Translations under genes and position numbers: made by a program | In this document: piece after piece, positions 11,918 through 24,454 of the stretch | Layout of the letters: the number at the start of each line of letters is the position of its first letter | Position numbering within the stretch: position 1 is the stretch's first letter | Notes under the pieces: model-generated | Databases searched by the model: none | What the model saw: the letters and a program-made list of their open reading frames with translations, nothing else | What the model was told of the DNA's origin: nothing | NCBI GenBank assembly: GCA_903919315.1 | Contig: CAIXHP010000020.1 | Location: 1-64,000 of the forward strand | Reading direction: 5' to 3' | Source of the DNA: an uncultured Pseudomonadota bacterium | Lineage (GTDB): Bacteria; Pseudomonadota; Alphaproteobacteria; UBA9219 | Length of the DNA stretch: 64,000 nt

Positions 11918-12030
11918 GTCATCCCCGCGAAGGCGGGGAACCATCACCTGTAGTACGAAAAGCGCCGGTCTGGAAAAATTGTACTCTACCCTATCACCGG
12001 GTGATGGATCCCCGCCTTCGCGGGGATGAC
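11918..12030 (+). repeat. 113 bp palindromic repeat element, copy 1
   Basis: Terminal inverted repeats GTCATCCCCGCGAAGGCGGGGA / TCCCCGCCTTCGCGGGGATGAC; core matches the reverse complement of 24345-24454. Confidence 0.9.
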
Positions 12031-12196
12031 CTTGTTTTAATGGTTGTTCTTTGCTTTTTGAGTTTCCGGACGGACACTAAGAGGTAAGTCTTTTAGGTCC
12101 TTTGGCCGAAGAATAGCCCTCTCTGTTCCTCCTGTTCCACTCCGTATATTATGTAAAAGTTAGTCAGAAAACAAAAAAGCCAACCGAAGGTGGATC

Positions 12197-12257
12197 TAAT
12201 ACATTGATTTAATTGGCGTCCCCTACGGGATTCGAACCCGTGTTACTACTGTGAAAG
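12197..12257. repeat. Island attachment site with displaced tRNA-Glu 3' fragment
   Basis: 61 bp direct repeat with 24036-24096, 3 mismatches; 12214-12257 is the 3' part of tRNA-Glu (-). Confidence 0.9.
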
Positions 12258-12414
12258 AGTTGTATATGGCACTTTGGGGGACATGGCGAAACATGGCAAC
12301 GCCTAGAAAAACCTTATTAACAGCCGTTTTCTGTTTCCTCTTGTTCCCCTGAATCCCTCCCCGTATATTACCCAAAACTTACCCAAAAATTCCTAGGGCC
12401 AAATGGAGGGATAA

Positions 12415-13701
12415 ATGGCGAGGCAAGTGCGGGATGCCGTTTTGGACACCAGAAACGCACGAAGGAAGCTAAAGACCCAAGCGGAACCCCATTGGCGGGC
12501 GCTGGATAGGGGGTTGCATCTGGGCTATCGCAAGAGGGCTAGTGGTGGTTCATGGATTGTGCGGCGCTTTACGGAGTCCGGCGCGTACAAAAAACACAAG
12601 ATTGGCCTTGCCGATGATTTTCAGGATGCCGATGGCGTCAAGACACTGGATTATCGGCAGGCTCAGGAAGCCGCCCGCAAGTGGTATCACCATGAAACCA
12701 GAAAAGAGGCTGGGCTAGAGGAATCGCACGAAGGTCATTACGCCGTCGCTGACGCCATGCGCGATTATCTGGCGCACTATGCGGTGGAGGGGAAGGGGCT
12801 GTCTGTCGCCAACGCCATAACCAAAGCCCATATCCTGCCAGTGCTGGGGGAAGTCCGGCTGGACAGGCTGACCACGAAAAGAATTACCGACTGGTTGCAA
12901 GACACGGCGGCAAGCGCGGCACGGCTTCGCACAGGCAAGACTGCCCGCAAGCGCAATCTGCGCCAGTTGTCCGCCGACGCCAACGCAGTTCGTCGCCGAC
13001 GCGCAACCGCGAACCGGGTTCTGACCGTCCTTAAAGCCTCTCTTAATCATGCTTGGCGGCAGGGGAAGGTTGCCAGCGACATTCCTTGGCGCAAGGTAAA
13101 GCCGTTCAAGAACACCTGTGCGCCGGTTGTGCGGTATTTGACTGAGGCGGAATGCGTCCGGCTTGTGAACACCTGTCCGCCTGACCTTCGCCGTATGGCT
13201 CAAGCGGCACTGTTTACCGGATGCCGCTATAGCGAGTTGGCGAACCTAATAGCCAGCGACTTTAATCCGGACGCTGGCACGGTCGCCGTTCGCGTAAGCA
13301 AGAGCGGCAAACCGCGCCATGTGGTTCTGACCGACGAAGGGCAGGAGTTTTTTGCGCAAGTGGTGGTTGGCAAAAATGGGGCTGACCTGATTTTCACGCA
13401 TGACAACGGCAATGCATGGGGCAAATCGCACCAAAGCCGCCCGCTTTTGGAGGCTTGCGCCCGCGCCGAGATTATACCAGCAATATCATTTCACGTTTTG
13501 CGGCACACGCATGGTAGTATTTTAGCCATGAAGGGCGTTCCCATGCCTGTGATAGCCAAACAGTTGGGGCATGCCGACACCCGCATGACGGAACGGCACT
13601 ATGCCCACCTATCACCCAGCTATGTTGCGGACACCATACGAGAGAATTTCCCGACGCTGGGGATTGTTGAAAAGAGCAATATCAAGCAATTAACGAGGTA
13701 G
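12415..13701 (+). CDS. int: Tyrosine recombinase/integrase
   Basis: TGCRYSELANL (catalytic Arg), SFHVLRHTHGSILAMKGVPMPVIAKQLGHADTRMTERHYAHL (HxxR..H..Y). Confidence 0.95.
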   Translation: MARQVRDAVLDTRNARRKLKTQAEPHWRALDRGLHLGYRKRASGGSWIVRRFTESGAYKKHKIGLADDFQDADGVKTLDYRQAQEAARKWYHHETRKEAGLEESHEGHYAVADAMRDYLAHYAVEGKGLSVANAITKAHILPVLGEVRLDRLTTKRITDWLQDTAASAARLRTGKTARKRNLRQLSADANAVRRRRATANRVLTVLKASLNHAWRQGKVASDIPWRKVKPFKNTCAPVVRYLTEAECVRLVNTCPPDLRRMAQAALFTGCRYSELANLIASDFNPDAGTVAVRVSKSGKPRHVVLTDEGQEFFAQVVVGKNGADLIFTHDNGNAWGKSHQSRPLLEACARAEIIPAISFHVLRHTHGSILAMKGVPMPVIAKQLGHADTRMTERHYAHLSPSYVADTIRENFPTLGIVEKSNIKQLTR

Positions 13702-13840
13702 ACGATCAAGACGCATGACCAATACAACAGAATGCAGTATTCTTGCCCTTGGCGCGGCTAGGTTTGGCCGCTGAAAAATCCGTCCGCACGGAACTGCCGC
13801 GCCCTTCCTGTCTTTGCGGATACCCGTTGCGGGAGGGGAT

Positions 13841-14773
13841 ATGAGTTATTGGCAATTCTATGACTTTACCTGTCTGCCTGTTGCAGTCGCGTTCCTTTTT
13901 CGTGAAGTAATATCAATAAACTCTGAAGATTTTGACGAGCTTACCTTAAGGGAGAGCGCAGAGATTTATGAAAGGCTCAAGTCTTCCGAAGAAGCCTTGG
14001 AGTTTCTAGATTTTGCAATCGTGGCGGTGAGAAAAAAGAAGATTGAGACAGAGCGGGTGTACAAGCTCCCGAAAAGCCTTTCAGATAAGGATATTCTTAA
14101 TATTTTTGTTGAATCGGCTGGTTTTTTTAGGTGGGCAGAAAAAGAGGGGGTGGAATTCGATTATTTTTTGCAAAGTTCGGTTAAACAGCATGAAAAAAAG
14201 CTGCTAAAGAAGAATTATTCCAAAAACAAAATTACTCAGCAAGAAACAGTTCTGCATATGAAAGAGCCGCTTTGGAATCTAGGCAAGGCCATTCTTTATC
14301 TGCATGGGTATGATGCAACTGAAGATGAAGAAATTGATCTTGATATTGTAAATTCCGACAAAAAATTGAAGAGAATTTATATCTACGCTCAAGACAGTTC
14401 AAAATTAAATAGGCTCAAAATTATTGGCGTGGACGAACACGCAAAAGTTTTGCCACATGAATTTATGGAGTGGGCAGAGACACTGGACATGGGGTTTCCA
14501 AATTTAGTTGGCAATGCGCGAGCACAAGAAAATGGAACGAATAAGTTAACTTATGAGTCTGCGCCGTATCTGCAACTTATGTTGGACGCGATGCTTCATT
14601 TTAAGGGGCGCTTGAAGGACAGAAAAGAGAAAAAGCAAACCTTTGAAGAATGGATATACATCCAAGGCGTAAAGAAGTTTGGTTCCGGCTTTAGCAAAAG
14701 CAAAGCCGAGTCTATGGCAACGTTCATTAGACCCCCTGAGTTTGAGCGGGGCGGAAATAAGCGCATTAATTGA
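13841..14773 (+). CDS. Hypothetical AT-rich island cargo protein, about 310 aa
   Basis: ORF with GGGAGGGG RBS before ATG 13841; Lys/Glu-rich; C-terminus KAESMATFIRPPEFERGGNKRIN; no family recognised with certainty. Confidence 0.75.
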   Translation: MSYWQFYDFTCLPVAVAFLFREVISINSEDFDELTLRESAEIYERLKSSEEALEFLDFAIVAVRKKKIETERVYKLPKSLSDKDILNIFVESAGFFRWAEKEGVEFDYFLQSSVKQHEKKLLKKNYSKNKITQQETVLHMKEPLWNLGKAILYLHGYDATEDEEIDLDIVNSDKKLKRIYIYAQDSSKLNRLKIIGVDEHAKVLPHEFMEWAETLDMGFPNLVGNARAQENGTNKLTYESAPYLQLMLDAMLHFKGRLKDRKEKKQTFEEWIYIQGVKKFGSGFSKSKAESMATFIRPPEFERGGNKRIN

Positions 14774-14841
14774 TGTGTATGGAACCTTCGGAGGTTCCTT
14801 CGAGGCTTCCAAGGTAGAAGTTTCCTTGCAACTTTATAGGT

Positions 14842-14885
14842 TGTCCCCATGAACGCCGGGCTGTCCGGCGTAAACAAAGGGGACA
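14842..14885 (+). promoter_or_regulatory. Nested hairpin covering the RBS of the HTH gene
   Basis: Outer stem TGTCCCC (14842-14848)/GGGGACA (14879-14885); inner stem CGCCGG (14854-14859)/CCGGCG (14865-14870); start codon at 14890. Confidence 0.55.
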
Positions 14886-14889
14886 TGCC

Positions 14890-15093
14890 ATGCAGCCGCA
14901 CCAATTCAACTTAACCAAAGCCGCCTATTCCGTGGGCGAGTTATTGGCGATCCTGCCTATAAGCCGCACCACGCTTTATAGGGCCGTCCAAGCCGAACAG
15001 TTGAAGGCCACGAAGCTTGGTTCGCGAACAATGTTTCTTGCGCCCCATGTCGCCGAGTTTCTGGCCGCTCTGGCCCTACCCCCTAATGCTTAA
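14890..15093 (+). CDS. AlpA/excisionase-like helix-turn-helix protein
   Basis: YSVGELLAILPISRTTLYRAVQAEQLKATKLGSRTMFLAPHVAEFLAAL (HTH_17-like). Confidence 0.85.
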   Translation: MQPHQFNLTKAAYSVGELLAILPISRTTLYRAVQAEQLKATKLGSRTMFLAPHVAEFLAALALPPNA

Positions 15094-15125: not shown

Positions 15126-17633
15126 ATGTACGATGAAACACAGTTCGCTGATACGCCGACAGTTTTACCCTATGGGTTTGAGCGAACCGAAGAAACCGAC
15201 AAAACCGATGCGCCAAACGTTACCAATGGATTTTCTGTGGTTTCCAACGGCGCGTTTCTGGCGGCGCTCTTCGGCAGTCAACCTTCTGACCTTTGCCCGG
15301 TAGTGGTCAGCTTCAAAGGCAATCCGGCGAAGGTGGCAAAGGCGGCGTGGTGGGGCGTGGCTTGGTGTTATGGAACCGCAGCGCCCGCCCCAGAGGCCAA
15401 CAACTATTTCAGCCTTGCGGCGTTCCGCCCGGATGAATCGGGACAGTATCGGCGGCGCAAAGCGCAATTCAATGCCTTGCATGCTGTGATGTTGGATGAT
15501 GTCGGTACGAAAGTTGCGCTGGATCGTCTGACCTTGCCGCCTTCATGGCTCTTGGAAACGTCGCCCGATAATTTTCAAGCCGGATATATTTTGAAAGAAC
15601 CGATACAAGAAACGGTGGTGGCGGATCGTCTTGTGAACGCGATTGTTGCGGCGGGGTTATGTGATCCGGGCGCTAACGGGCCAACGGCGCGGCTGGCGCG
15701 ATTGCCGGAAGCGGTAAACGGCAAGCATGATCCGGCCTTTCATTGCCGGATGCGGGAGTGGGAATCTAACCGGCGCTATACCATCCAAGAATTGATTGAC
15801 GGGTTGCAATTGGATATGCGCCCGCTGGGCCGTCCCCAAGTGAACGCGGACAATCGACACGCGGAAGACTCGGACTGTGACGGCCCTGTGCTAATCCCCA
15901 GTCCGACAGAGAATGCCGTAGTGGCGGCGCTGCGCGTGAAGAATCTATATAAAGCCCCGCTTGGCGACGGAAAGCATGACGTGACCTGTCCGTGGGTGGC
16001 GGAACATGGCGGCGCGAGCGATGGCGGAACGGCCTATTTTGAACCAGACGCTAAATGGCCGCTGGGTGGGTTTAAATGTTTGCATGGGCATTGCGCCCAC
16101 AGGCATATCTGCGACTTGTTGCAGTTTCTATGCGTGGCGGTGAGCGCGGCGCGGATGAAGCCGATCATCCGTGTGGTGTCCGGAGAGATTCCGCGAATTG
16201 TCGATGCAGCCGAACAAGAATTGGCGAAAATGGGCAGGTACTATCAACGCGGCAGTCTGATTGTGACCGTTGGCACAGACCCCGGCACAAAAGAAACCAG
16301 TGTTCGCGATATTAACCCGCCCGCGCTGATTGCAGCGTTGGCAGGCGCGGCCACATGGGAACGTTTTGACGGGCGCAGCAAGCAATGGGTTCGCACTGAC
16401 CCGTCGCAGCGGCACGTTTCTGTGTTGTTTGATGCAATAGCCTATCCCCATTTGCCGGTGCTGAATGGGCTGACCCGGCAACCCTATTTCCGGCCCGATG
16501 GTACGCTGGTGACGCGGGCGGGCTATGATGCGTCAACCGGCATGTTTGGCGTGTTTGCAGAAAAAGATTTTTCCGTCCCTTCCCAGCCTTCAAAAGCAGA
16601 CGCTGAGGCTGCTTTGCATTTGCTGGTTGGTCTGCTGGCGGAATTTCGTTTTGCCAAACCGGCGGATAAGGCGGCGACTTTGGCGGCATTCCTTACGGCA
16701 ACGATCCGGCCAACATTGGCGCATGCCCCAATGTTTCATGTCAGAGCGCCACAAATTGCTTCGGGAAAGTCCCATTTATGCCGTGTCATAATTGCTTTTG
16801 CGACGCCTCAGCGCGGAACGCCGACAACCTTTCCACATGACGATGAAGAGTGCCGCAAAATGCTTTTGGCGGAATTGCTACGCGTTCCGGCAGTAATCGA
16901 ATTTGATAATTTAACTGGCGATCTTGTCCCGCATAAAAGTCTGTGCATTGCCCTGACCTCGGAACATTTTAGCGGGCGCATTTTGGGCATATCCAAAACA
17001 GCGACGGTCAGCACGCGCACATTGTTTCTTTCCAGCGGCAACAATGTTGGGCCGGTGCAGGATATGGCGCGGCGATGCGTGACCATAAATCTTGATCCGG
17101 CCTGTGAAACGCCCGCCAGCCGCACTTTCAGCCGCCCCGATTTGGTGCAGGACGTGCAGCGCGAACGCGGGCGCTATGTTTCGGCGGCGTTGACGATAAT
17201 GCGGGCTTGGATTGTCGCCGGACGCCCCAAGTCGCCATGCAGGGCAATGGCTGGGTTTGAGGATTGGTCAGACATGTGCCGCCAGTCGCTGTTATGGCTG
17301 GGGCAAACAGACCCCGCCGACGCTGTGTTTGAAGCCATGTCGGATGATCCAGACCGCGAGATGCTGGCGCGTTTGTTGGCGGCATGGAAGGCCTGCTTTG
17401 ACCGCAAACCAACGATGGTGCGTCAAGCTGTGGATTTTGAGGGCTTCTCTGACCTAGGCATGGAACTGCGCGAGGTCTTGTATGACATTGCCGGGGAACG
17501 TGAAATGATTAACCGCCGTGTGTTGGGGCGCTGGATCAAGCGCCATGCGGGGAGGATCGTTAACGGCATTCGTTTTGTTCGCGCTGGAGGCAGTCGTTCG
17601 GCAGAGGCTTGGGTTGTGGAATCGGTTTCATAG
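15126..17633 (+). CDS. Primase/helicase-type replication protein
   Basis: RepB-primase-like PPSWLLETSPDNFQAGYILKEPI; Walker A-like APQIASGKSHLCRVI; EFDNLTGDLVPHKSLCIALTSEHFSGRILG helicase-like region. Confidence 0.8.
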   Translation: MYDETQFADTPTVLPYGFERTEETDKTDAPNVTNGFSVVSNGAFLAALFGSQPSDLCPVVVSFKGNPAKVAKAAWWGVAWCYGTAAPAPEANNYFSLAAFRPDESGQYRRRKAQFNALHAVMLDDVGTKVALDRLTLPPSWLLETSPDNFQAGYILKEPIQETVVADRLVNAIVAAGLCDPGANGPTARLARLPEAVNGKHDPAFHCRMREWESNRRYTIQELIDGLQLDMRPLGRPQVNADNRHAEDSDCDGPVLIPSPTENAVVAALRVKNLYKAPLGDGKHDVTCPWVAEHGGASDGGTAYFEPDAKWPLGGFKCLHGHCAHRHICDLLQFLCVAVSAARMKPIIRVVSGEIPRIVDAAEQELAKMGRYYQRGSLIVTVGTDPGTKETSVRDINPPALIAALAGAATWERFDGRSKQWVRTDPSQRHVSVLFDAIAYPHLPVLNGLTRQPYFRPDGTLVTRAGYDASTGMFGVFAEKDFSVPSQPSKADAEAALHLLVGLLAEFRFAKPADKAATLAAFLTATIRPTLAHAPMFHVRAPQIASGKSHLCRVIIAFATPQRGTPTTFPHDDEECRKMLLAELLRVPAVIEFDNLTGDLVPHKSLCIALTSEHFSGRILGISKTATVSTRTLFLSSGNNVGPVQDMARRCVTINLDPACETPASRTFSRPDLVQDVQRERGRYVSAALTIMRAWIVAGRPKSPCRAMAGFEDWSDMCRQSLLWLGQTDPADAVFEAMSDDPDREMLARLLAAWKACFDRKPTMVRQAVDFEGFSDLGMELREVLYDIAGEREMINRRVLGRWIKRHAGRIVNGIRFVRAGGSRSAEAWVVESVS

Positions 17634-17687
17634 GTTTTGTCGGGTTGGAAGCGCGACAGAAAGCAAAGTGTCACAGGGAGAGAGAAC

Positions 17688-18368
17688 ATGGCCAACGGAT
17701 CAAAAAGCACAAAGACTGACAAGTCCAGAGCCTTGATCATGACCAATTCATCCGGCAAATCGCGCGACGTGGTTTTGGCCGAAGTGGCGTTTGGCGGTAT
17801 CGTCAATAGCGCCACGGTTACGGCGGACTTTTCCAAGAGCAATTTTGGCGAATTGAGCCTTGTTGAATGTGTGCAGGTCTTAAAGGACAAGACTGTGTCG
17901 GTGCATAAGGGCAAGTTGGACGATGCGGAAAAACTGCTGATTGGCCAAGCTTTCGCGTTGGACGCCATTTTTTGTTCGCTGGCGCGGCGGGCGCAGTTGA
18001 ACATGGGCGAGTATATCAATGCCGCAGACCGCTATATGCGCCTAGCCCTGAAAGCACAGGGGCAATGCCGAGCGACGTTGGAAACGCTGGCGGCGATCAA
18101 GAATCCGCCGATGGTGTTCGCCAAGCAAGCCAATATCGCGCAAGGGCCGCAACAGATAAACAACACGGTTAATGCGCCGGACAGGGGGAGTCTTAGCAAT
18201 CCGCACGCGCCCGCGCCCGCGTGCGCGGGAAATTCAAATTCTGTGCAAAACAAACTATTGGAGGACAGGCATGAAACGGGGTTGGACATTGGAACGGCGG
18301 GCGAGGCAGGCCGAGGCGATCCGGCGTTGGCAGCCGTGGGCGCGATCAACTGGCCCCCGGACGCATGA
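17688..18368 (+). CDS. Conserved-type accessory hypothetical protein
   Basis: GGGAGAGAGAAC before ATG 17688; FAKQANIAQGPQQINN...LLEDRHETGLDIGTAGEAGRGDPALAAVG. Confidence 0.7.
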   Translation: MANGSKSTKTDKSRALIMTNSSGKSRDVVLAEVAFGGIVNSATVTADFSKSNFGELSLVECVQVLKDKTVSVHKGKLDDAEKLLIGQAFALDAIFCSLARRAQLNMGEYINAADRYMRLALKAQGQCRATLETLAAIKNPPMVFAKQANIAQGPQQINNTVNAPDRGSLSNPHAPAPACAGNSNSVQNKLLEDRHETGLDIGTAGEAGRGDPALAAVGAINWPPDA

Positions 18369-18498
18369 CGGCAAGGCGCGTTCGGCGCGTAACGCCGATA
18401 AGGGCGGCGCATGGCGCGAAACGCGGGAATTTATGAGGGTCATACGACAGGCGATGTGGCAGCAACAAGAAACGCTGGACGATAGAAACGGAGGTTAA
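18271..18498 (+). CDS. Small accessory hypothetical protein (75 aa), overlaps preceding CDS
   Basis: GGAGG RBS before ATG 18271; MKRGWTLERRARQAEAIRRWQPWARSTGPRTHDGKARSARNADKGG. Confidence 0.7.
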   Translation: MKRGWTLERRARQAEAIRRWQPWARSTGPRTHDGKARSARNADKGGAWRETREFMRVIRQAMWQQQETLDDRNGG

Positions 18499-18642: not shown

Positions 18643-20160
18643 ATGCCGCTATTGGATTGGTTGAACCGGGGGGAGACGGTCACGGTTGCTGACCATGTGC
18701 CTTATCGCTTGCTGGAGGCGGCGGATGATTTGTCGTTTGGCGACAAAGACAGCCCCAACATGCTTATCCATGGCGACAATCTGGAGGCGTTGAAGGCGCT
18801 GCTTCCCTACTACGCGGGGAAGGTGAAATGCATTTTCATTGATCCGCCCTACAACACAAAAAGCGCGTTTGAGCATTACGACGATAATCTGGAGCATAGC
18901 CAGTGGCTTGCCATGATGTATCCGCGCCTTGAAATGCTGCGTGCGTTGCTGGCGGAAGACGGCAGCATCTGGGTGACGATTGACGATAATGAAGCGCATT
19001 ATTTGAAAGTGATTATGGATGAGATTTTTGGGCGAAATAATTTTGCTGCGAACGTTGTCTGGCGTTCATCCGATGCTTCAAATAACGATGCAAAAAGTTT
19101 TTCACTCGATCACAATCAAGTCCTTGTATATGGCAAGGCAACGGACTGGCTAGCAAAACCTTTGGCACGAACAGAGGCGGCCAACGCACATTACAAAAAT
19201 CCCGATAATGATCCCAAAGGGGCTTGGTTTTCAGGAAATTTATCCTCGCCGAAACCAAGGCCAAATCTTAGGTTTCCGATAGCATCACCGACGGGACATG
19301 AGATTCAGCCTCCAAGTAACGGCTGGCGTTGGAAGAAAGAAACCCTGTTTGAGATGATAAAAACAGGTGAGATTATATTCTCCAAGAACGGAACGCGTTT
19401 AATAAAGAAAACTTATCTTGTGGATCAAGGTGGGTTGGCCCCTTCGACATTATGGGATGATATTGAAGAAACAGGACACAATAGACAGGCTAAATACGAG
19501 CTTAAAAAGTTGTTTCCAGAAACCACAACAGCAGAACTTTTTGCAACGCCTAAACCTGAGCGATTAATGCAGCGAATACTTCATATTGCTACAGAAGTAG
19601 ATGATCTGGTTCTCGACTCCTTCCTTGGTTCCGGTACCACCGCCGCCGTCGCGCACAAAATGGGCCGTCGCTATATCGGCATTGAAATGGGCGATCATGC
19701 CAAGACGCATTGCGCCCCGCGCCTGCAAAAAGTGATCGAAGGCGAACAGGGCGGCATATCGGAAGCGGTGGAGTGGAAGGGCGGCGGCGGGTTCCGGTTT
19801 TATCAACTGGGGGCAACAATCTTTGACGCGGACGGCAACATCAATCCGGCCATTCGCTTTCCGCATTTGGCCGCGCATGTCTGGTTTTGCGAAACCAAGA
19901 CCGCCTATCGCCAGCCAAAGAAAAAATCCCCTTTGTTGGGGCTGCATGACGGTACGGCCTATTATCTGCTCTATAACGGCATTCTGGGCGACAAGAGCGT
20001 AAGCGGCGGCAATGTGCTGACCATGCCCATCCTCAAATCCCTGCCGCCCCATGACGGGCCACGGGTGATCTATGGCGAAACCTCCCGCCTGTCGCCGGAA
20101 CGCCTCAAGACGTTAAACATCGTCTTCAAACAAACGCCCTACGACATTAAGGCCCGCTAA
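18643..20160 (+). CDS. mod: Type III restriction-modification methyltransferase (Mod)
   Basis: IDPPYNTKSAFEHYDDNLEHSQWLAMMYPRL (motif IV) and DSFLGSGTTAAVAHKMGRRYIGIEM (motif I), beta-class order. Confidence 0.92.
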   Translation: MPLLDWLNRGETVTVADHVPYRLLEAADDLSFGDKDSPNMLIHGDNLEALKALLPYYAGKVKCIFIDPPYNTKSAFEHYDDNLEHSQWLAMMYPRLEMLRALLAEDGSIWVTIDDNEAHYLKVIMDEIFGRNNFAANVVWRSSDASNNDAKSFSLDHNQVLVYGKATDWLAKPLARTEAANAHYKNPDNDPKGAWFSGNLSSPKPRPNLRFPIASPTGHEIQPPSNGWRWKKETLFEMIKTGEIIFSKNGTRLIKKTYLVDQGGLAPSTLWDDIEETGHNRQAKYELKKLFPETTTAELFATPKPERLMQRILHIATEVDDLVLDSFLGSGTTAAVAHKMGRRYIGIEMGDHAKTHCAPRLQKVIEGEQGGISEAVEWKGGGGFRFYQLGATIFDADGNINPAIRFPHLAAHVWFCETKTAYRQPKKKSPLLGLHDGTAYYLLYNGILGDKSVSGGNVLTMPILKSLPPHDGPRVIYGETSRLSPERLKTLNIVFKQTPYDIKAR

Positions 20161-21179
20161 TGCCTCAGCAATCCGATATTCTGATCTACCAGACCGAAGA
20201 CGGCCAAACCCGGATTCAAACCGTGTTGCAGGATCAAAGCGTTTGGTTAAGCCAAGCGCAGATGGCCGAGCTTTTTCAGAAAGATGTTCGCACGATCAAC
20301 GAGCATATTCAGAATATCCTTGCCGAGGGGGAATTGCAGCCTGAAGCAACTATCCGGAATTTCCGGATAGTTCAAACTGAGGGAAAGCGCGAGGTTGCCC
20401 GCGATATTAACTATTACAGTTTGGATGCCATCATAGCCGTGGGCTATCGCGTTAAATCCCATCGCGGCACGCAGTTCCGGCAATGGGCCACGGCGCGGTT
20501 GAAAGAATATTTGATTAAGGGCTTCGCGCTGGACGATGTGCGGCTGGAGCGCGGCACCGACGACGATTATTTTGACGATTTGGTTGAACGGGTTCGGGCC
20601 ATACGGGTTTCCGAGCGCCGCTTTTATCAGAAAATCACCGACATTTACGCCACAAGCTTGGATTATGACGTAAACCATTCGTTGACCCATGACTTTTTTG
20701 CGACGGTGCAAAACAAGTTTCATTACGCCATTCACGGCATGACGGCGGCGGAGGTCATCAACCGCCGCGCCGATGCTACCAAACCCTTCATGGGGCTAAC
20801 CAGTTTCAAGGGCGCAAGCGTAAAGCGCGGCGACGTGGCGGTGGCCAAGAACTATCTGACCGAAGATGAACTGGCGTCCATGAACCGGATCGTTGACCAG
20901 TATCTGTCCTTTGCCGAAGAGCAAGCTTCCCGCCGCCGTCCCATGATGATGAAGGACTGGATCGAAAAGCTGCATGGTTTTCTGACCCTGAATGACCGCG
21001 ACATTTTGCAGCACAAGGGCAAAGTGTCCGCCGGTGCCGCCGAGCAAAAGGCGTTTGGCGAGTTTGAGAAATACCGGAAAATTCAGGATGCCGCGCTGGT
21101 CAGCGATTTTGACAAAGCGGTGCAGAAACTGCCTAAGCCCGCCAAGCGCGTTAACAAACCGGCCAAGAAAGACGAATGA
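20160..21179 (+). CDS. RhuM-family protein
   Basis: VWLSQAQMAELFQKDVRTINEHIQNILAEGEL...INYYSLDAIIAVGYRVKSHRGTQFRQWATARLKEYLIKGFALDDVRL. Confidence 0.88.
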   Translation: MPQQSDILIYQTEDGQTRIQTVLQDQSVWLSQAQMAELFQKDVRTINEHIQNILAEGELQPEATIRNFRIVQTEGKREVARDINYYSLDAIIAVGYRVKSHRGTQFRQWATARLKEYLIKGFALDDVRLERGTDDDYFDDLVERVRAIRVSERRFYQKITDIYATSLDYDVNHSLTHDFFATVQNKFHYAIHGMTAAEVINRRADATKPFMGLTSFKGASVKRGDVAVAKNYLTEDELASMNRIVDQYLSFAEEQASRRRPMMMKDWIEKLHGFLTLNDRDILQHKGKVSAGAAEQKAFGEFEKYRKIQDAALVSDFDKAVQKLPKPAKRVNKPAKKDE

Positions 21180-23809
21180 TGCAGCTTAAAACCTATCAGA
21201 CGCAAACGCTGGACAGTCTGAAAGACTACCTGACCGAGGCCCGCTTTGCCGGAGCGAAGGCGGCCTATGACGCGCATGACAAGCCGGGGGTGGCGAAGCG
21301 ACGCGATTATGTGCCATTGCCTGCGCCGTTGGACAATGTCCCCTATGTCTGTTTACGCCTGCCCACCGGCGGCGGCAAAACCCTGTTGGCGGCGCATACG
21401 GTGCGGATTGCTGCGGAAACTTATCTGGAACGCGATTATCCCGTGGCGTTGTGGTTGGTGCCAAGCAACACGATCCGAACGCAGACGCTTGAGACTCTTA
21501 AAACGCCCGGCCATGCCAACTATGAAGCCTTGCGGGCGGCGTTTGACGGCAATTTCATCGTTCTGGATATTGCCGACTTCACACAACTTCGCGCCCATGA
21601 TTTAGCCAGCAAGGCCGTGATCCTTGTCGGCACGGTGCAGACGATCAAGACCGAAGAGGCCAACACGGATTCCCGCAAGGTCTATGCCCATAACGAATAC
21701 CTTGAATCCCTATTCAGCAAAGTACCGGCTGGCGTTGCCGGTCTGGATACGATCAAAGACGGCGCGGACAAAGGGAAAATCCGCTTTTCCTTCGTCAACC
21801 TGCTGCGCCTGCATAGGCCGCTGGTGCTGGTGGACGAAGCCCACAACAACGCTACCCGTTTAGGCTTTGAAGTCTTTGAGCGCGTTAATGCCTCCTGTGT
21901 GGTGGAATTTACCGCCACGCCCGCCGCCAACAGCAATATCCTTCACAGCGTTTCGGCTATGGCGCTGAAAGCCGAAGAGATGGTCAAGCTTCCCATCGTA
22001 CTGACCGAACACCCAACATGGGCCGAAGCGGTGCGGGACAGTATCATCCGGCGGCAACAGCTTGAAACGCACTGTCGCGACGAAGCCCAATATATCCGGC
22101 CCATCGTTCTGTTTCAGGCAGAAAGCCAAGGTCGCGATACGACGTGGCAAATCCTGAAAAATCACTTGGTCACAAACGAAAACATTCCTGAAAACAAAAT
22201 TGCCGTAGTCACAGGCGATCAAAGGGAGTTGGACGGGATCAATCTGTTTGATCCGGCTTGCCCAATCGATTTTGTCATTACGGTGCAGGCATTGAAGGAA
22301 GGGTGGGACTGTTCCTTCGCCTATGTGTTCTGTTCCGTTGCCAACATCAATTCCGCCAAGGACGTTGAACAGCTTTTGGGCCGCGTGTTGCGGATGCCTT
22401 ATGCCAAGCGGCGCAGGCATGAAGATTTGAACAGGGCTTATGCCTTTGTGGCGTCTGACACTTGGCCCAATGCGGTCAAGCTGCTGAGTGACCGCATGGT
22501 GCAGAATATGGGCTTTGAGGAAGATGAACTGGATGAAAGCCTTGAAACCCGCCAGCCGCGATTGAACCTTGCCGAACAAGCGGCAGAGGCGTTTTGCCAG
22601 CCTGATCCGTTGGTCTTGTATTTGCGCGAAAACGCCGACTTGGGCGATTTATCCGATATGGATAAGCAAGGTTTGGTGATTGAAAAAGCGGAAAGAGGGG
22701 GCTTGGTTGCCACTATTACCGGCTTGGTCAGCCGCGACACGGTTGAAAAGTTGGTGGCGAACGTGACGCCTGAAACCAAAGCCGAAGCGAAAATCAATTT
22801 GCAGTTGCATCAAGCGACGATGCACCGCGCCATCGCCCCGGCTAATTGTGGCGAGAGCTTTGTTGTGCCGCAACTGTGTCTGCGGATTGATGGCGAATTG
22901 GAACTGCCGGACGAAAACGTTTTCCTTTATGCCGGAGGCTGGAAACTCACCGGCCAGGCGCAACTGACCGAAACGGAATTTTCGTTGCAGTCGGACGGCA
23001 AAACGTTTGCGATTGATATTCTGGAAGGCCATATCCGGCATTCCTTCGTCGCGCCCGCCGAACAGTTGAACCTTGACTTGGTGGATACGGGCTGGTCGGT
23101 CAACGCCTTAGCTCAATGGCTTGATAAGCGGTTGCGGCAGCCTGATATTTCTCAGCCACAGCTGTTGGAATTTGCCCGCAGTACGGTTGCTTGGCTAGAA
23201 GTCCAGCGCCACATTCCGCTGACCGCTCTGTCACGCGGACGCTTTCTTTTGCAAAAGGTTATGGACGGTAAAATCAGGCAGTTGCGTGGACAGGCCAAGC
23301 AACGTGGTTATCAGTCGCTTCTGTTTGGGCCTATGGCTGCGGCGGAAGTCTCTTTTGACGAAAGCTTTGCCTTTGCGCCGAACAGCTATTTCCCGCAACG
23401 GCTCTATCGCGGATCATTCAGCCCTCAGAAGCATTTCTATCCCGTCGTGGGCGATATGAACGGGGAAGAGGTGGAATGCGCCAAGGCGCTGGAAATGATA
23501 GCGGGGCGGCTAAAATACTGGGTGCGTAACCTTGAACGTGATCCGCTGGCCTTCCGTCTGCCAACGTCCACCGACTATTTTTACCCCGACTTTGTCGCCA
23601 TGCTGACCGATGGCCGGATTCTAGTTGTTGAATACAAAGGCGCGTTTCTGGACAACGCGGACACAGACGAAAAAGAGAATGTCGGCCAGCTTTGGGAAAA
23701 ACTTAGCGGCGGGAAGGGGCTGTTCCTTATGGCTTGGAAGAAAGACGGCCAAGGGCGGAATGTTCATCAACAGGTGCAGGCGAAGGTGGGGGCGGGCAGC
23801 AACGCGTAG
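21176..23809 (+). CDS. res: Type III restriction endonuclease subunit (Res), DEAD/DEAH helicase
   Basis: LRLPTGGGKTLLAAHTV, LVDEAHN, FTATPA, VEQLLGRVLRMPYA, nuclease-like YFYPDFVAMLTDGRILVVEYKG. Confidence 0.92.
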   Translation: MMQLKTYQTQTLDSLKDYLTEARFAGAKAAYDAHDKPGVAKRRDYVPLPAPLDNVPYVCLRLPTGGGKTLLAAHTVRIAAETYLERDYPVALWLVPSNTIRTQTLETLKTPGHANYEALRAAFDGNFIVLDIADFTQLRAHDLASKAVILVGTVQTIKTEEANTDSRKVYAHNEYLESLFSKVPAGVAGLDTIKDGADKGKIRFSFVNLLRLHRPLVLVDEAHNNATRLGFEVFERVNASCVVEFTATPAANSNILHSVSAMALKAEEMVKLPIVLTEHPTWAEAVRDSIIRRQQLETHCRDEAQYIRPIVLFQAESQGRDTTWQILKNHLVTNENIPENKIAVVTGDQRELDGINLFDPACPIDFVITVQALKEGWDCSFAYVFCSVANINSAKDVEQLLGRVLRMPYAKRRRHEDLNRAYAFVASDTWPNAVKLLSDRMVQNMGFEEDELDESLETRQPRLNLAEQAAEAFCQPDPLVLYLRENADLGDLSDMDKQGLVIEKAERGGLVATITGLVSRDTVEKLVANVTPETKAEAKINLQLHQATMHRAIAPANCGESFVVPQLCLRIDGELELPDENVFLYAGGWKLTGQAQLTETEFSLQSDGKTFAIDILEGHIRHSFVAPAEQLNLDLVDTGWSVNALAQWLDKRLRQPDISQPQLLEFARSTVAWLEVQRHIPLTALSRGRFLLQKVMDGKIRQLRGQAKQRGYQSLLFGPMAAAEVSFDESFAFAPNSYFPQRLYRGSFSPQKHFYPVVGDMNGEEVECAKALEMIAGRLKYWVRNLERDPLAFRLPTSTDYFYPDFVAMLTDGRILVVEYKGAFLDNADTDEKENVGQLWEKLSGGKGLFLMAWKKDGQGRNVHQQVQAKVGAGSNA

Positions 23810-24012
23810 CCTTAGAGCCGCACATGGTGCGGTGCTGTGATGTCGAAGTCGTGCTGGGTGGCCCGCTGTATAAGGAAGTGCGGCACTAGGGCTTCAAGCC
23901 ATAGGAACCTCTGATAAATCATAACATCCAGTTCGCGATGTTGCGCCGACTTGTGCCTCTCTGTGCGCCCGTGTTTCACACCGCTTATTCCCCAAAACTT
24001 ACCCAGAAAATG

Positions 24013-24034
24013 AAAAAGCCGCCCTGCGGCGGCT
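24013..24034 (-). terminator. Rho-independent terminator for tRNA-Glu, on the island side
   Basis: Minus strand reads AGCCGCC-GCAG-GGCGGCT-TTTT directly downstream of the tRNA 3' end. Confidence 0.75.
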
Positions 24035-24035
24035 G

Positions 24036-24096
24036 TAACACATTGATTTGATTGGCGTCCCCTACGGGATTCGAACCCGTGTTACTACCGTGAAAG
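24036..24096. repeat. Island attachment site (intact tRNA side)
   Basis: 61 bp imperfect direct repeat of 12197-12257. Confidence 0.9.
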
Positions 24097-24128
24097 GGTA
24101 ATGTCCTAGGCCTCTAGACGAAGGGGAC
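24053..24128 (-). tRNA. tRNA-Glu (TTC)
   Basis: Minus strand GTCCCCTTCGTCTAGAGGCCTAGGACATTACCCTTTCACGGTAGTAACACGGGTTCGAATCCCGTAGGGGACGCCA; anticodon TTC; encoded CCA. Confidence 0.97.
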
Positions 24129-24344: not shown

Positions 24345-24454
24345 GTCATCCCCGCGAAGGCGGATCCATCTCCCGGTGATAGGGTAGAGTACAATTTTTC
24401 CAGACCGGCGCTTTTCGTACTACAGGTGATGGATCCCCGCCTCGCGGGCATGAC
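24345..24454 (-). repeat. 110 bp palindromic repeat element, copy 2 (inverted)
   Basis: CCGGTGATAGGGTAGAGTACAATTTTTCCAGACCGGCGCTTTTCGTACTACAGG is the exact reverse complement of 11947-12000. Confidence 0.9.

Follow-up and report, generated by a model that had tools for sequence, protein, structure and literature searches.

The Stl/Rpr master repressors of Gram-positive phage-inducible chromosomal islands (PICIs) contain, besides the part that binds DNA, a sensor part that varies. These proteins are element-borne switches that convert a phage signal into excision (PMC6092414). AlpA is known from the cited literature to trigger excision. BisR of ICEclc is a protein of 251 amino acids without a Pfam domain, whose gene immediately precedes alpA; it is a strong activator of the alpA promoter, and ICEclc deleted for bisR no longer transfers (PMC7423338). 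The bisR gene is not located next to the integrase gene (int) and is switched on by TciR, and no BisR binding site was found in the consulted passages of two ICEclc papers. In phage-inducible chromosomal minimalist islands (PICMI), iolg is an int-overlapping gene belonging to 13 families of unknown function, which is required for helper-induced excision and whose deletion abolishes it (PMC10803314). Here, we analysed a gene, referred to as X, in a stretch of 64,000 nucleotides (the window) from contig CAIXHP010000020.1 of an uncultured alphaproteobacterium of the lineage UBA9219. Gene X lies between int and an alpA-like gene on an island, and its product most likely binds DNA and regulates alpA, the excision switch; we give this reading a probability of roughly 0.72. 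In the proposed mechanism, the C-terminal domain of X would bind sites that lie shortly before the alpA promoter, the N-terminal module would receive a signal, perhaps phage infection or other stress, and decide the expression of alpA, and excision of the island by AlpA and Int would depend on this expression. The features of the locus that bear on this reading are as follows.

12415..13701, plus strand: tyrosine integrase gene, int (PF00589, 9.1e-25; phrog_1, 2.7e-56)
13841..14773, plus strand: gene X, putative regulator of alpA with two domains, without a library match and with relatives in the int-X-alpA slot
13841..14515, plus strand: N-terminal module of X, family A (about residues 1-225), common to the HEPN-type fusion of locus L030 and the TIR fusion of locus L031
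14516..14770, plus strand: C-terminal domain of X, type i (residues 226-310), proposed to bind DNA, with three predicted helices; type i is also found upstream of alpA in genomes G473, G494 and G453
14781..14798, no strand: palindrome GGAACCT-TCGG-AGGTTCC (GGAACCTTCGGAGGTTCC), 18 bp, candidate operator of X, with a weaker partial copy at 14805-14814
14835..14840, plus strand: TATAGG, candidate -10 element of alpA, recognised by eye from start-anchored leaders
14839..14889, plus strand: predicted alpA leader hairpin pairing the Shine-Dalgarno sequence (TGTCCCC...GGGGACA, inner ACGCCGG/CCGGCGT; -31.1 kcal/mol, z -3.7)
14890..15093, plus strand: alpA-like gene (HTH_17), excisionase/regulator and proposed target of X (PF12728, 1.6e-7; phrog_66)

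Among these systems, X resembles BisR in size, the lack of a Pfam domain, the position before alpA (X is immediately upstream of alpA on the same strand) and, as proposed here, the need for it in activation of the element. The iolg product was likened to X by description; the two are alike in standing before alpA and in comprising many unrelated families, and iolg abuts or overlaps int as most relatives of X do, whereas the role proposed by the PICMI authors is in the excision complex and differs from the regulator reading. The gap between int and X is 139 nt in the window, against -8 to 15 nt in most relatives. From the Stl/Rpr repressors, X differs in having no helix-turn-helix (HTH) repressor match, in a DNA-binding part that is proposed to be C-terminal, in the use of AlpA as an intermediary and in being co-directional with alpA rather than divergent from it, and no sequence relationship was seen.

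The reading frame of X was open and its product is of 310 amino acids. A TTG at 13814 offers an alternative start with a product of 319 amino acids, and the 310-amino acid form was favoured because GGGAGGGG precedes the ATG at 13841. The GC content of the kilobase 14001-15000 containing X was 0.43, as compared with 0.53-0.56 in the neighbouring island kilobases and ~0.6 in the chromosome. The initial annotation had described an open reading frame of about 310 amino acids with its own ribosome-binding site, more AT-rich than its neighbours and located between int and an AlpA-like gene, and each of these points was confirmed, the flanks being the PF00589 integrase and the HTH_17 gene. X reached none of the curated thresholds of the Pfam, PHROGs, PADLOC, NCBIfam and PDB sequence searches; no HTH match was obtained in Pfam, NCBIfam or PHROG, and neither a recognised effector domain (Pfam, PADLOC) nor a TIR or HEPN catalytic domain was found. 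Similarly, tblastn of X against phages and plasmids returned zero matches, one scan of genome contigs for X relatives found none, and the single-sequence AlphaFold2 model of whole X was poor (predicted local distance difference test [pLDDT] 44), its PDB matches being noise. X is nevertheless a real gene, as relatives with 28-36% identity hold the equivalent position in other genomes.

These relatives (genomes and loci carry our G and L numbers) came from searches of genomes of the class, which gave two partial relatives at first and more, from another order of the same class, with a two-sequence profile; most of them belong to one order, and the independent events are fewer than the counts given below. 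The recurring gene order was integrase, X and an AlpA of 64-76 amino acids, usually followed by an HTH_17-containing protein or a primase, and the order int-X-alpA was seen in G168, G420, G487, G441, G466, G473, G504, G553 and the window. The order in Ruegeria was int-ORF-X-alpA-HTH. To avoid circularity, a search with AlpA alone was used, which gave 20 strong AlpA loci. The integrase was directly upstream of X in 17 of these, and X therefore belongs to the backbone of the elements. In most of the 17, int and X were separated by about -8 to 15 nt (9 nt in several), in two by 49-96 nt and in two by >500 nt; the gap between X and alpA in the window (14774-14889) is 116 bp. An element on a plasmid of Legionella adelaidensis (L055:3450-9407) has the order int-FRG-X-alpA-primase, and its primase (844 amino acids) is related to that of the window. 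E. coli YfjH, encoded between intA and alpA in CP4-57, was considered as a relative of X and rejected, being on the opposite strand and without a blastp match.

The blastp comparisons among X proteins split them at a single point into N- and C-terminal parts. The N-terminal parts fell into at least four families (A-D), X of the window being of family A. Three types were distinguished by the C-terminal part: type i, to which X of the window belongs, type ii (...YGYDP...TIRxYLKKA) and type iii (...YLNIIGALLG...LSKRTLExKFA). The N families combine freely with the C types. For example, G168 and G487 are 85% identical in int, 81% in AlpA and 60% in the X C-terminal domain, and their N-terminal parts are unrelated. 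The N-terminal module of the window matched proteins of L030 (6e-15), L031 (3e-10) and L032 (2e-38). The L030 protein (L030:8220-9524, 434 amino acids) has a family A head and a Hypoth_Ymh (HEPN-type) end (2.6e-34), and the L031 protein (L031:8324-10423, 699 amino acids) carries a family A head and a TIR domain (TIR_2, 4.4e-16). Both genes are free-standing, and that of L031 adjoins ApeA, HerA and SoFic-like defence genes; its product, in which the input domain is new, is a candidate for a role in defence. These effectors share N-module A with X, which has neither a TIR nor a HEPN domain. Because the same module is fused to TIR and HEPN-type effector domains elsewhere, the family A module may be a sensor or input module, perhaps of infection, and we infer that the N-terminal module of X itself would sense infection. 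The 85-amino acid C-terminal piece, when modelled alone with single-sequence AlphaFold2, gave helices at 13-29, 43-58 and 61-71 with an overall pLDDT of 71 and a block-mean pLDDT of 86-90 over residues 41-70, where a helix-turn-helix-like pair is confidently predicted. No significant PDB fold match was obtained for this piece; the top hit, the TEA DNA-binding domain (E 1.8), was not used as evidence.

The gaps between X and alpA contain short palindromic sites, which in types ii and iii are tandem and follow the type of the C-terminal domain. For type iii, the gaps have CCGCAnnTGCGG twice at a distance of 21 bp, matching 19-20 of 20 positions in all five elements, and the tandem score in 39 other alpA gaps was ≤12/20 (Fisher test on site presence, 9e-7). 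The type ii gaps contain two CCGAATTCGG-like copies 21 bp apart in most elements. A lag of 21 was the best of all lags tested both in type ii (11 elements) and in type iii (5 elements), and none of 1,000 shuffles reached it. A type iii gene of Paraburkholderia, which was found blind by its protein, has the tandem site (19/20) 3 bp past its stop codon; it is not next to alpA, and no alpA or integrase was recognised nearby. In each of the N families A-D, the operator type tracked the C type and not the N family. The distance of the first site to the alpA start was 87-90 bp in 12 of 13 scored elements and 99 bp in Pseudomonas veronii (standard deviation of 3.1 for all), as compared with 5-73 bp (standard deviation of 17.5) to the X stop, and this constancy towards alpA places the site at the alpA promoter. 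What can be read directly from the sequences is thus the slot, the swapping of N- and C-terminal parts, the association of C type with operator (strict for type iii and looser for type ii) and the spacing to alpA. The natural domain swaps are the strongest evidence that the C-terminal domain of X would bind DNA there.

The protein in the BisR position of P. veronii, where the gene order is LysR-BisR-AlpA-ParA-small-ParB-DUF2857, was found to have a type iii C-terminal domain together with a CCGCA tandem site, and type iii relatives of X matched it by this domain (L035, 5e-19; L029, 3e-13). Window X gave no blastp match to it at 1e-3 and differs from it in both N-module and C type. In position and architecture, X of the window is an analogue of the BisR-position protein rather than a proven member of its family. 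When the bisR-alpA-parA stretch of P. veronii was compared with E. coli by BLAST, pieces of parA/parB were alone among the matches listed.

In the window, the gap between X and alpA contains two inverted repeats with arms of 7, the palindrome and the leader stem, and 0.75% of gap shuffles reached that number. A second copy of the palindrome was scored at 10 of 14 matching bases with a 20-bp lag and 11 of 14 with a 12-bp lag. The type i elements G494 and G453, which were found with AlpA, have instead two GGGTGTCACCC-like sites ~44 bp apart. We infer that X of the window would bind its palindrome; the same logic extends to type i, but the exact operator of the window is a prediction and the least certain link. 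Several observations weigh against X as a regulator of alpA. In place of a clean tandem with 21-bp spacing, the window has one palindrome and a weak partial copy of it, and this palindrome may be a stem in RNA; among the type ii gaps, those of G553 and Ruegeria match poorly and that of G420 in part. Furthermore, hhalign did not link type i to type ii or iii, its link between ii and iii was weak, and type i has few relatives; no credible match came from the fold searches or from PDB sequence searches with the domain alignments. BisR itself was compared by position and description, with the P. veronii protein standing in for its sequence.

The close linkage of X to int, along with the excision-complex role that the PICMI authors propose for the int-overlapping iolg (PMC10803314), would also fit a structural part acting with Int and AlpA at the attachment (att) sites, the palindromes being Int/AlpA arm sites. 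This is unlikely, as the palindrome follows the C type of X even where int and alpA are similar (G168, G487 and G441 of type iii versus G420, G504 and G553 of type ii, with AlpAs mostly 64-84% identical), the Paraburkholderia copy keeps its site away from any recognised alpA or integrase, and the sites are at the alpA promoter. Another possibility considered was that X is a stand-alone anti-phage effector and the interval in which it lies a hotspot of defence genes, on account of the TIR and HEPN-type fusions of the N-module, the defence genes beside the TIR gene and the FRG gene in the int-alpA interval of the Legionella element. This is also unlikely: X has no effector-domain or PADLOC match, the members linked to int have a small C-terminal domain that goes with the operator where the fusions have an effector domain, and X is present as a rule and not as variable cargo. 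The view of the int-alpA interval as a defence hotspot was abandoned after the operator and the swapping of N- and C-terminal parts had come to light.

A regulator of alpA could still act by repression, with Stl-like logic and relief by a phage product, and this variant overlaps in confidence with the preferred reading. The palindromes are located where the -35 region is expected, so that binding could block the polymerase, and the Stl protein of SaPI works by repression. On the other hand, BisR in the equivalent position is an activator of the alpA promoter, and the loss of bisR (PMC7423338) or iolg (PMC10803314) does not release transfer or excision but abolishes it. Repression is the less probable option, and X as a regulator would somewhat more probably activate alpA than repress it. 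Regarding the expectations of the initial annotation, a role in island control is supported by the conserved backbone slot and by the C type predicting the alpA operator, and for this last reason the suggestion that the C-terminus contacts DNA also held. A defence role receives indirect support from the HEPN-type and TIR fusions in free-standing genes, and X itself has no effector domain. The description of X as cargo was not supported, since all relatives of the element that were found have it between int and alpA, usually ~50 nt or less from int.

The expression of alpA may have a second layer of control in its leader. The candidate -10 element was not found by a sigma-70 scan. In the leader hairpin of the window, 5 of 6 Shine-Dalgarno bases were paired, and a longer stretch gave a z of -2.8. 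Among 23 elements folded, 19 had 5 or all 6 of the Shine-Dalgarno bases of alpA paired in a short leader hairpin, which suggests translational control as this second layer. A search of 16 alpA loci with Rfam found tRNAs and no family for the hairpin, which is a candidate for a common alpA leader RNA.

The island carrying X is bounded by 128-nt direct repeats, both of which include the 3' part of tRNA-Glu. Its remaining features are given below.

12133..12260, no strand: attL, direct-repeat copy with a 3' fragment of tRNA-Glu (128 nt, 80% identical to its partner, 11,839 bp [11.8 kb] away)
15126..17633, plus strand: primase/replication protein (phrog_29234, 2e-86; phrog_4861 DNA primase, 2e-13)
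18643..20160, plus strand: type III methyltransferase (mod), cargo (PADLOC MTase_III, 1.5e-190)
20160..21179, plus strand: RhuM-family gene between mod and res, cargo (PF13310, 1.2e-111; PADLOC PDC-S05, 1e-145)
21176..23809, plus strand: type III restriction subunit (res), cargo (PADLOC REase_III, 7.8e-186)
23972..24128, minus strand: attR repeat (copy at 23972-24099) with the intact tRNA-Glu (24053-24128)

The type III restriction-modification operon that had been noted at the other end of the island is thus present, with the RhuM gene between its subunits. The likeness to P4 satellites is a loose one: int, the AlpA-like gene and the primase were matched, and no other P4 gene was identified, the capsid-size genes (sid/psu/delta) being absent from the named matches. 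The element of G487 (L033:11458-15827) has its own type III restriction-modification pair downstream of int-X-alpA-HTH, of subfamilies different from those of the window. On the 3' side of the primase, two overlapping open reading frames (17637-18498; 243 and 108 amino acids) gave no meaningful match in Pfam, PHROGs, PADLOC or NCBIfam. Just beyond both island ends, at 11931-12011 and 24362-24442, there is an 81-nt inverted repeat (gatccccgccttcgcggggatgac, 98%) that looks like a dispersed chromosomal repeat.

As a modular protein of the int-alpA slot that has a matching operator, X is a concrete candidate for such a regulator. A binding site can be predicted for every type of C-terminal domain, including that of the P. 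veronii BisR-position protein, and the natural domain swaps make the reading directly testable. A wider reading is put forward tentatively, at somewhat below even confidence: the N-modules would be infection sensors common to mobile-element switches and TIR/HEPN effectors, the C-terminal output would be either a toxin or the turning on of alpA, and each C type would read its own 21-bp tandem operator across Proteobacteria. If true, a module common to TIR and HEPN proteins would link the mobilisation of elements to bacterial immunity, with one sensor serving defence when it is joined to a toxin, and escape or mobilisation when it is joined to a domain that binds DNA and switches alpA on, in a modular sensor-operator code. 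As a proposed switch with interchangeable heads, X may reveal how islands of this kind time their departure from the chromosome.
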